From the NCBI RefSeq assembly GCF_004114375.1, contig NZ_CP034692.1:1736001-1800000 (forward strand): a DNA stretch of 64,000 bases, given 5' to 3'. The position numbers and the translations under genes are program-made. The notes beneath the pieces were generated by a model. The model saw only the letters and a program-made list of their open reading frames with translations, was not told the DNA's origin and did not search any database. This DNA is from Halorubrum sp. BOL3-1 (GTDB taxonomy: Archaea > Halobacteriota > Halobacteria > Halobacteriales > Haloferacaceae). Positions 14,748 to 31,861 of this stretch are shown in pieces (within the stretch, counting starts at the first letter, position 1; each line of letters opens with the position of its first letter).

Positions 14748-15008
14748 CTGCGGTGGCGCGCCCCGGTGAACGGCCCGAAGGGCCGCGAACCGACGGTGCG
14801 AGGGACGCGGCGAACGCGAGCGGCGAAGCCGCGAGCCGTGAGCCGCGAGGCTGGGGAGGTATGAGGCGGTGCGGTGTGGTCGGGTGGGACTCAGAGGGGC
14901 GGTCGGTGAGGCGGGCGCAGGCGACGCAAGGACCACAGGGAGTGAGCGGAGCGAACGACCGAGGACCGCAGGGAGCGTGCGCCCGCCTCACCGACTGGGG
15001 CTCTGGAA
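14748..15008 (+). repeat. structured dispersed repeat, copy 1
   Basis: A roughly 260 bp element with several hairpins: CGGCCC-gaa-GGGCCG near 14771, GCGGCGAAGCCGC near 14820, and a long stem with 18-bp perfect arms at 14902-14919 and 14978-14995, extended outward by CAGAG/CTCTG. Between the long arms, AGGACCACAGGGAG and AGGACCGCAGGGAG form a short direct repeat. Its first half shares TGCGGTGGCGCG, GAGGCTGGGGAGG and GGTCGGGTGGGAC, in the same order, with a second copy at about 31188-31345. The strand given is the one on which both copies read the same way. Function is unknown. Confidence 0.6.
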
Positions 15009-31098: not shown

Positions 31099-31461
31099 AC
31101 ATGAGTCTTGTGTCGGTGTGTGGATGAGTCGAGGCAGTGTTTAAATACTGGTAGCGGTGACGCCGATTATTTATAAACGAATGTGCGGTGGCGCGTGCCG
31201 CCGAGCGCGCCGCCGAAGGCGGCCGCGAGGAGCACGCGCGAGGGAGTCGCTGGCCCCGGAGCGAAGCGGAGGGTGCCAGTGACGAGGCTGGGGAGGCGTG
31301 GGGCGCTGTGCGGTTGCGGTCGGGTGGGACACGGAGGGACAGCCCCGAGACCGTGTCCGTGTCGATCGAGTGTTTATAAACAAACCCATCATCCTACAGC
31401 CGAGCGGCTGGGGCTTCGGCGGTGTTCACCGGTGGATCGTCGACTGTGTAAAATCGTTTTA
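31099..31461. other. non-coding region with second repeat copy
   Basis: No credible gene. It holds a (CA)n tract just before (near 31088-31101), a TTTAAATA box near 31139 that could serve the small minus-strand gene, and the repeat element of about 31188-31345. TATA-like TTTATAAAC boxes lie on each side of the repeat at about 31170 and 31372. Confidence 0.6.
31188..31345 (+). repeat. structured dispersed repeat, copy 2 (short form)
   Basis: It shares TGCGGTGGCGCG (start), GCGAGGGA, GAGGCTGGGGAGG and GGTCGGGTGGGAC, in the same order and with similar spacing, with the copy at 14748-15008. The internal sequence differs but keeps hairpins (CGCCGCCGAAGGCGGCC, then GGCCCCGGAGCGAAGCGGAGGGTGCC). It lacks the long terminal stem of copy 1. 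A TATA-like TTTATAAAC at about 31170 stands 15-20 bp before its first conserved base, so it could be transcribed as a small RNA. Confidence 0.5.
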
Positions 31462-31526
31462 CTCGTCGCTGTCGCTCCTCGCTCGCAGTCGGCGTCGACA
31501 GAAACGCCAGGAGAGGGATTTGAACC
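31462..31526 (+). repeat. 65-bp direct repeat, distal copy, with tRNA-Ser 3' fragment
   Basis: Identical over 65 bp to 31737-31801. Its last 22 bp (31505-31526) equal the 3' end of the tRNA-Ser gene (acceptor and T-arm strand). The arrangement resembles the far attachment site left by integration at a tRNA 3' end. Confidence 0.8.
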
Positions 31527-31638
31527 GAAATCAGACGTGCTCGCTCACTACGTTCGCTACGCGCGACTGATAGGGTTCGAAACCCTCCGTCTCGGTTTCG
31601 ACGAACGGCTCGCTACGCTCGCCGTGTTCGTCGAGAAC

Positions 31639-31660
31639 GCCGGGAGAGGGATTTGAACCC
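31639..31660 (+). repeat. third tRNA-Ser 3'-end fragment
   Basis: GCCGGGAGAGGGATTTGAAC matches the tRNA-Ser 3' end with one mismatch (G for A in the acceptor) and lies between the two 65-bp repeats. It is a degenerate att-like fragment. Confidence 0.65.
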
Positions 31661-31736
31661 CAGTCGTTCCGCTCGCTTCGCTCACTCCACTCCCTGATTC
31701 AAATCCCTTGATTTCGGTTCGTCGACGCCGGGCTCG

Positions 31737-31801
31737 CTCGTCGCTGTCGCTCCTCGCTCGCAGTCGGCGTCGACAGAAACGCCAGGAGAGGGATTTGAAC
31801 C
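31737..31801 (+). repeat. 65-bp direct repeat, proximal copy overlapping tRNA-Ser
   Basis: Exact copy of 31462-31526, 275 bp apart. It runs from the tRNA-Ser flank into the tRNA T-arm, so the tRNA gene is complete at this end. Confidence 0.8.
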
Positions 31802-31861
31802 CCCGATCCCGGATGGGAACACGCTTTCCAGGCGTGCGCCTTACCACTCGGCCATCCTGGC
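31780..31861 (-). tRNA. tRNA-Ser(GGA)
   Basis: On the minus strand the acceptor GCCAGGA pairs with TCCTGGC and is followed by discriminator G73, a serine identity base. The anticodon loop CTGGAAA gives GGA. A long variable arm (GTTCCCATCCGGGATC region) places it with the type II serine tRNAs. The T-arm reads GGGGGTTCAAATCCC. A TATA-like CTTAACAG lies about 28 bp upstream. Truncated copies of its 3' end lie just downstream. Confidence 0.95.

Follow-up and report, generated by a model that had tools for sequence, protein, structure and literature searches.

A dispersed intergenic repeat family with a conserved fold in Halorubrum and other haloarchaea

The genome of Halorubrum sp. BOL3-1 carries about 90 intergenic copies of an element of about 250-300 nt, two of which lie in the window, the 64,000-nucleotide stretch of DNA analysed here. 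Together they form a real and apparently undescribed family of structure-constrained dispersed repeats. On balance, and with considerable reserve, it is best explained as a non-autonomous, old or slowly mobile intergenic repeat family of haloarchaea, mainly Halorubrum, held under a strand-specific constraint on its fold. We infer that a mobiliser provided in trans would have inserted copies at intergenic positions beside AT-rich sites resembling TTTATAA, that its machinery may recognise the folded plus strand in the form of RNA or of single-stranded DNA, and that the stems would be renewed by exchange between copies combined with compensatory mutation. A function for the host is not needed to explain the data, though some sites have long been kept. 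A bolder and quite tentative proposal is that these are archaeal mobile elements of a new class, which would rely on a multi-domain folded strand to propagate, with hairpins exchanged as cassettes while the fold and the G-rich connectors stay fixed. That a much-studied genus carries an abundant intergenic family with strong covariation, lacking an Rfam entry or any description that we could find, makes a single fold available in hundreds of natural variants, and allows tests of whether archaea possess small mobile elements relying on a folded strand and of how a site that retains its copy renews its stems.

The element and its two copies in the window

Copy 1 extends from 14750 to 15005 on the plus strand, in non-coding DNA between the end of an ilvA-like gene (14718) and the start of cysS (15187), and copy 2, also non-coding and on the plus strand, occupies about 31185-31418. 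The first half of copy 1 matches 31283-31338 with 84% identity over 56 nt (BLAST within the window, E 4e-10), and a weaker block is shared between 14749-14788 and 31184-31228. When a covariance model based on 35 copies, none of them from the window, was run over the 64 kb, it found 31190-31303 (E 1e-10) and 14755-14866 (E 1e-4), the next best hit having an E-value of 0.019. An earlier, sequence-only reading had noted blocks shared with about 31188-31345, and these matches bear it out; its restriction of the homology to the first half does not hold, as GGCTGGGGCTTCGG, which forms the 3' side of the long hairpin, recurs at about 31406-31419 as the counterpart of 14994-15006. The 18-bp perfect inverted arms that it described in copy 1 (14902-14919 and 14978-14995) are real and sit inside a 31-nt pair, 14892-14922/14975-15005, which is 84% complementary. 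Of the internal direct repeat there remains a weak match of 20 nt (14666/14897), one member of which lies inside the upstream gene, and it was given no weight.

Three helical domains, P1/P1a, P2 and P3, make up the element and are linked by conserved G-rich strands. Its 5' part consists, in order, of an AT-rich stretch (TTTATAA in some copies), GCGGTGGCGCGYGCC, P1, a GAGGGA link, P2 and GAGGCTGGGGAGGYGTGAGG. P1 encloses a short P1b, followed by a tandem G.A step and the hairpin P1a. After GAGGCTGGGGAGGYGTGAGG come a variable G/C linker, GGGYGGGACTC, P3 and TGGGGCTTYGG. P3, the long hairpin first noticed in copy 1 and present in most copies, starts from a base of 5 bp. Above it lie an internal loop, GGG x GGG, that hardly varies (GGGC/TGGGG or GGGC/CGGGG in 130 of 134), then a long stem and a tip rich in mismatches. 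RNA folding of a well-preserved copy predicts this same P1/P2/P3 structure (z -5.6), and for copy 1 the z values are -4.75 (plus strand) and -3.15 (minus strand).

In copy 1 the sequence and the fold, and for P1a also the model alignment, place P1a (CGGCCC-GAA-GGGCCG) at 14771-14785 and P2 at 14806-14846; the surrounding P1 is partly decayed, with unpaired P1 positions in the model alignment. The core strand GAGGCTGGGGAGG, one of the conserved unpaired strands and (nearly) invariant in alignment A1, follows at 14847-14859, and P3, with its base CAGAG/CTCTG, GGG x GGG loop, long stem carrying the 18-bp arms and mismatch-rich tip, spans 14892-15005 according to the inverted arms and the fold. 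In copy 2, P1 (GCGCGTGC/GCACGCGC) encloses P1a (GCCGCC-GAA-GGCGGC) at 31191-31239 and P2 (GTCGCTGGC...GCCAGTGAC) lies at 31246-31283, both from sequence and model alignment, followed by the conserved core GAGGCTGGGGAGG at 31284-31296. Comparison with other copies shows that its P3 (31332-31418, CGGAG-GGA-CAGCC...GGCTG-GGG-CTTCG) is reduced, the usual tip being lost and replaced by a 3' unit with TTTATAAAC at 31371-31381. All these features are on the plus strand. The GGAGGYG of the core (e.g. 14854-14859, 31291-31296) resembles the complement of the 16S rRNA 3' end, possibly by coincidence.

Beside copy 2, the interval 31500-31700, next to a tRNA at 31780-31861, contains repeated tRNA 3'-end fragments, GGGATTTGAACC, which suggests a tRNA-linked integration hotspot. 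In H. yunnanense (L148) the copy 2 site looks empty, but 606 bp including the tRNA fragments are missing, so that this is not a clean test of absence.

Copies, sites and turnover

A DNA search of the whole genome found 43 places. The 13-nt core GAGGCTGGGGAGG with at most one mismatch occurs in 130 places as against 29 for the reversed pattern, and exactly in at least 74 places among the matches listed; 92 distinct copies also have the upstream link motif. The suggestion that the element belongs to a dispersed family is thereby supported, and the family extends to related genomes, since all 35 Halorubrum genomes of a first survey carry 3-96 copies each by a strict pattern, the reversed-pattern control being 0 in every genome. 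Class-wide, at E<=1e-6, the covariance model finds the family in 42 of 292 genomes and seven of 77 genera (Halorubrum included), with E-values down to 1e-20; 35 of those 42 genomes are Halorubrum. Pattern matches beyond the genus occur, among others, in Haloparvum, Halorussus, Halosimplex, Haladaptatus, Halobellus and a Natrinema plasmid, and BLAST matches in three Halobaculum plasmids. Several relatives have a variant P3, CTGAAAG..CTTTCAG. No contig of a viral collection matches the element, and a viral origin was set aside.

An indication of movement comes from the L016 locus, where the element is absent in two species (G018 and G029) and where G029 has TTTATAA without the element. It came from a flank query covering four loci, and is the one clean empty site seen. 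Together with the range of copy numbers and the patchy spread it supports mobility. At least ten other sites are common to several species, which implies a slow turnover, and within this genome no pair of copies matching over more than 180 nt is more than about 90% identical, so that there is no sign of recent movement here, a point against the mobile-repeat reading.

The sites themselves may point to an AT-rich target. A dip in GC content lies at -17 to -10 before the copies, and upstream of copy 2 the AT-rich TTATTTATAAACGA (31166-31180, plus strand) is the proposed insertion target, on the grounds of its sequence, of the equally placed dip before other copies and of the motif in the empty site elsewhere. 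TTTATAA as such precedes no more than 15 of 86 copies, which counts against this proposal. As a possible target duplication, TTTATAA-like motifs flank some copies on both sides; the empty site has a single motif, its right junction being too diverged for comparison. The motif at -17 was also considered as a promoter and rejected: the usual archaeal promoter spacing would start the RNA inside P1, and the motif is present in G029 without the element.

No transposase or parent element belonging to the family was found, which counts against the mobile-repeat reading. Neither window copy has terminal inverted repeats, except for a 12-nt AT-rich pair at copy 2; the inverted arms are internal (P3). 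Dependence on a present-day Y1 transposase was rejected, as copy number is uncorrelated with the Y1 count (rho -0.03, p 0.89) and seven of the 35 genomes have no Y1 match, several high-copy genomes among them (G016 has 66 copies). Descent from IS605/TnpB elements was likewise discarded: in this genome the ends of 15 inspected TnpB loci and of the one TnpA locus are unlike those of the element, and the single element near a TnpB gene does not share its ends. Derivation from a retroelement or group II intron finds no support, as a reverse transcriptase model (PF00078, RVT_1) that finds its controls gave no match in the 35 Halorubrum genomes.

The shared sites count against the mobile-repeat reading to the extent that selection for function could also explain them, and they bear on a rival that we regard as unlikely though worth serious attention, namely that the element is a functional structured RNA, whether a small RNA present in many copies or a cis element of 3' UTRs or read-through transcripts, selected for regulation, processing or stability. 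Besides such long-lived positions, among them that between ilvA and cysS, it draws on the spacing to genes: where the upstream gene is directed towards the element, the median gap is 51 nt. The copies sit between genes (called by a simple codon-usage method), and the right neighbour tends to end towards the element (62/94). Against this rival, left neighbours face either way equally often (46:48), an orthologous site can be empty, and a copy number which varies so widely between species is not what this rival would lead one to expect.

Covariation and the folded strand

Compensatory changes in the stems, which the sequence-only reading had proposed as a check, proved abundant. When 93 copies from other Halorubrum loci were aligned to the model, 94.8% of pair cells proved to be paired and two-sided changes occurred in 22 of 25 pairs. 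Cells with such changes number 326, compared with 90 after shuffling (0/500), and slid controls collapse. As this alignment was fitted to the model it leans towards it; in a MAFFT alignment which was not so fitted, helix 1 is paired in 98.5% and the whole structure has two-sided changes in 107 cells against 38 in shuffles. Structure is thus kept while the letters are free, also between copies at the same place. At the ilvA-cysS locus many species have the element, and most of these copies have the P3 base CAAAG/CTTTG in common, yet differ widely in the sequence types of their P1a and P2 hairpins; the common base suggests one inherited copy, independent insertion at the same site being the alternative. 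At the L065 locus, with flanks 91-94% identical, the P2 arms are GTCAGTCGGTC/GACCGACTGAC in G000 and GTCGACCGGTC/GACCGGTCGAC in G016, for which independent insertion at the same site is one possible cause.

A strand test on a stem alignment was noisy. Among wobble pairs, G-U exceeds A-C by 118:46 overall, though not within P2 itself, with 52:19 in P1, 29:4 in P1b and 25:3 in P1a. A separate count gives 73:22 for P3, where a single pair has T.G 30 times and C.A twice. P2 is without such a preference (12:20, the register being uncertain, and 15:11 in a separate count). Hairpin loops are GNA in 72 cases against 6 of the reverse-strand TNC. The G-U preference and the GNA bias imply that it is the plus, G-rich strand that folds, and a conserved fold of a strand-specific kind is well supported.

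Whether that strand acts as RNA or DNA divides the remaining readings. Tolerance of wobble would favour RNA as the folded nucleic acid and, with the covariation on one strand and the strong conservation of the unpaired strands, speaks for the functional RNA set out above; of the marks of a structured RNA family, covarying pairs are found, and strand-specific wobble in P1, P1b, P1a and P3, not in P2. The hairpin loops tell against it, as they include GNA triloops and no GNRA tetraloop. GNA triloops are unusually stable in DNA, and such a loop set would fit single-stranded DNA. The loops therefore count in favour of a somewhat less likely rival, a palindromic repeat of the REP/BIME kind that acts as DNA, double- or single-stranded, perhaps bound by a nucleoid or topology protein or processed by a single-strand transposase, as do the P2 counts and the inverted pairs of elements in Halorussus and Haloparvum. 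A pure-DNA reading based on P2 alone is weakened by the wobble preference in P1 and P3, and the palindromic repeat is opposed by the same clear preference, seen in P1, P1b, P1a and P3, and by the lack of correlation between copy number and Y1 count, several high-copy genomes having no Y1. Chance resemblance among the G+C-rich palindromes in which haloarchaeal intergenic DNA abounds, a reading for which the frequent GAGCGAAGCG-type palindromes of the stems might speak, is refuted by the empty reversed-pattern controls and is hardly credible given the conserved unpaired strands, the same-locus copies across species and the covariance-model E-values. Among the readings first offered (a structured RNA, a MITE-like element or a recombination site), that of a structured element which has moved fits the evidence best.

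Relation to known systems and associated repeats

The REP/BIME sequences of bacteria are palindromes of 20-40 bp whose units bear a GTAG or CGTC tag at one end (PMC3733652). The family resembles them in its many intergenic copies, its palindromic and mosaic make-up and the inverted pairs in some genera, but it is archaeal, its Halorubrum unit has about 250-300 nt, three helical domains and conserved unpaired strands, among which alignment A1 contains no such tag, and no RAYT-type transposase is linked to it. With MITEs and other non-autonomous elements it shares a short, non-coding and dispersed nature, empty sites in relatives and variable copy number, whereas it differs in that terminal inverted repeats, a classical mark of MITEs, were not found and that the internal fold is conserved rather than the ends. 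As in IS200/IS605 elements with their omega RNAs, there is a structured strand and a short AT-rich motif on the 5' side, although no tnpA or tnpB lies inside or consistently beside it. Its covariation is comparable in strength to that of multicopy structured RNAs in Rfam, yet no Rfam family matches it: in the window only tRNAs reach the gathering score, and the best weak match to a good copy has an E-value of 3.8. The freely accessible papers searched likewise gave no account of it, in agreement with the initial impression that it is not known as a described family.

Further repeats accompany the element. One or more 48-69-nt units with the same last strand often follow it; these tandem 3' units repeat GAGCGGCTGGGGCTTYGG downstream of the core at L006, L021, L062, L071 and other loci, and also at G000:C3:1575127-1575608. 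Their spacings are nearly all multiples of 3, for which no reason was found, and a protein-coding role was dismissed as no frame is open across the unit classes. Inverted pairs of elements are tail-to-tail around a long palindrome in Halorussus and head-to-head in Haloparvum (L176 3443-3773, L207 94-412, L132 6734-7133, L205 6681-7018). In L132, L149, L161, L204 and L205 the core is followed by a different P3-like domain, GAAAGGGCGAGGC...GATATSYCGCT...GAGGGCTTTC, which is common to Halosimplex, Halorussus and Haloparvum and may be a separate family of repeats. Small double-hairpin modules, GCCGGCGCTGCGCGCCGGCTGCCAGAGAATCTTCGATTCTCGCTG and CAGCGTGGCGC..GCGCCACGAGCAGCCGGC, are inserted at different points in L008, L016, L022, L074, L085 and other copies, and may represent a second, smaller repeat family.
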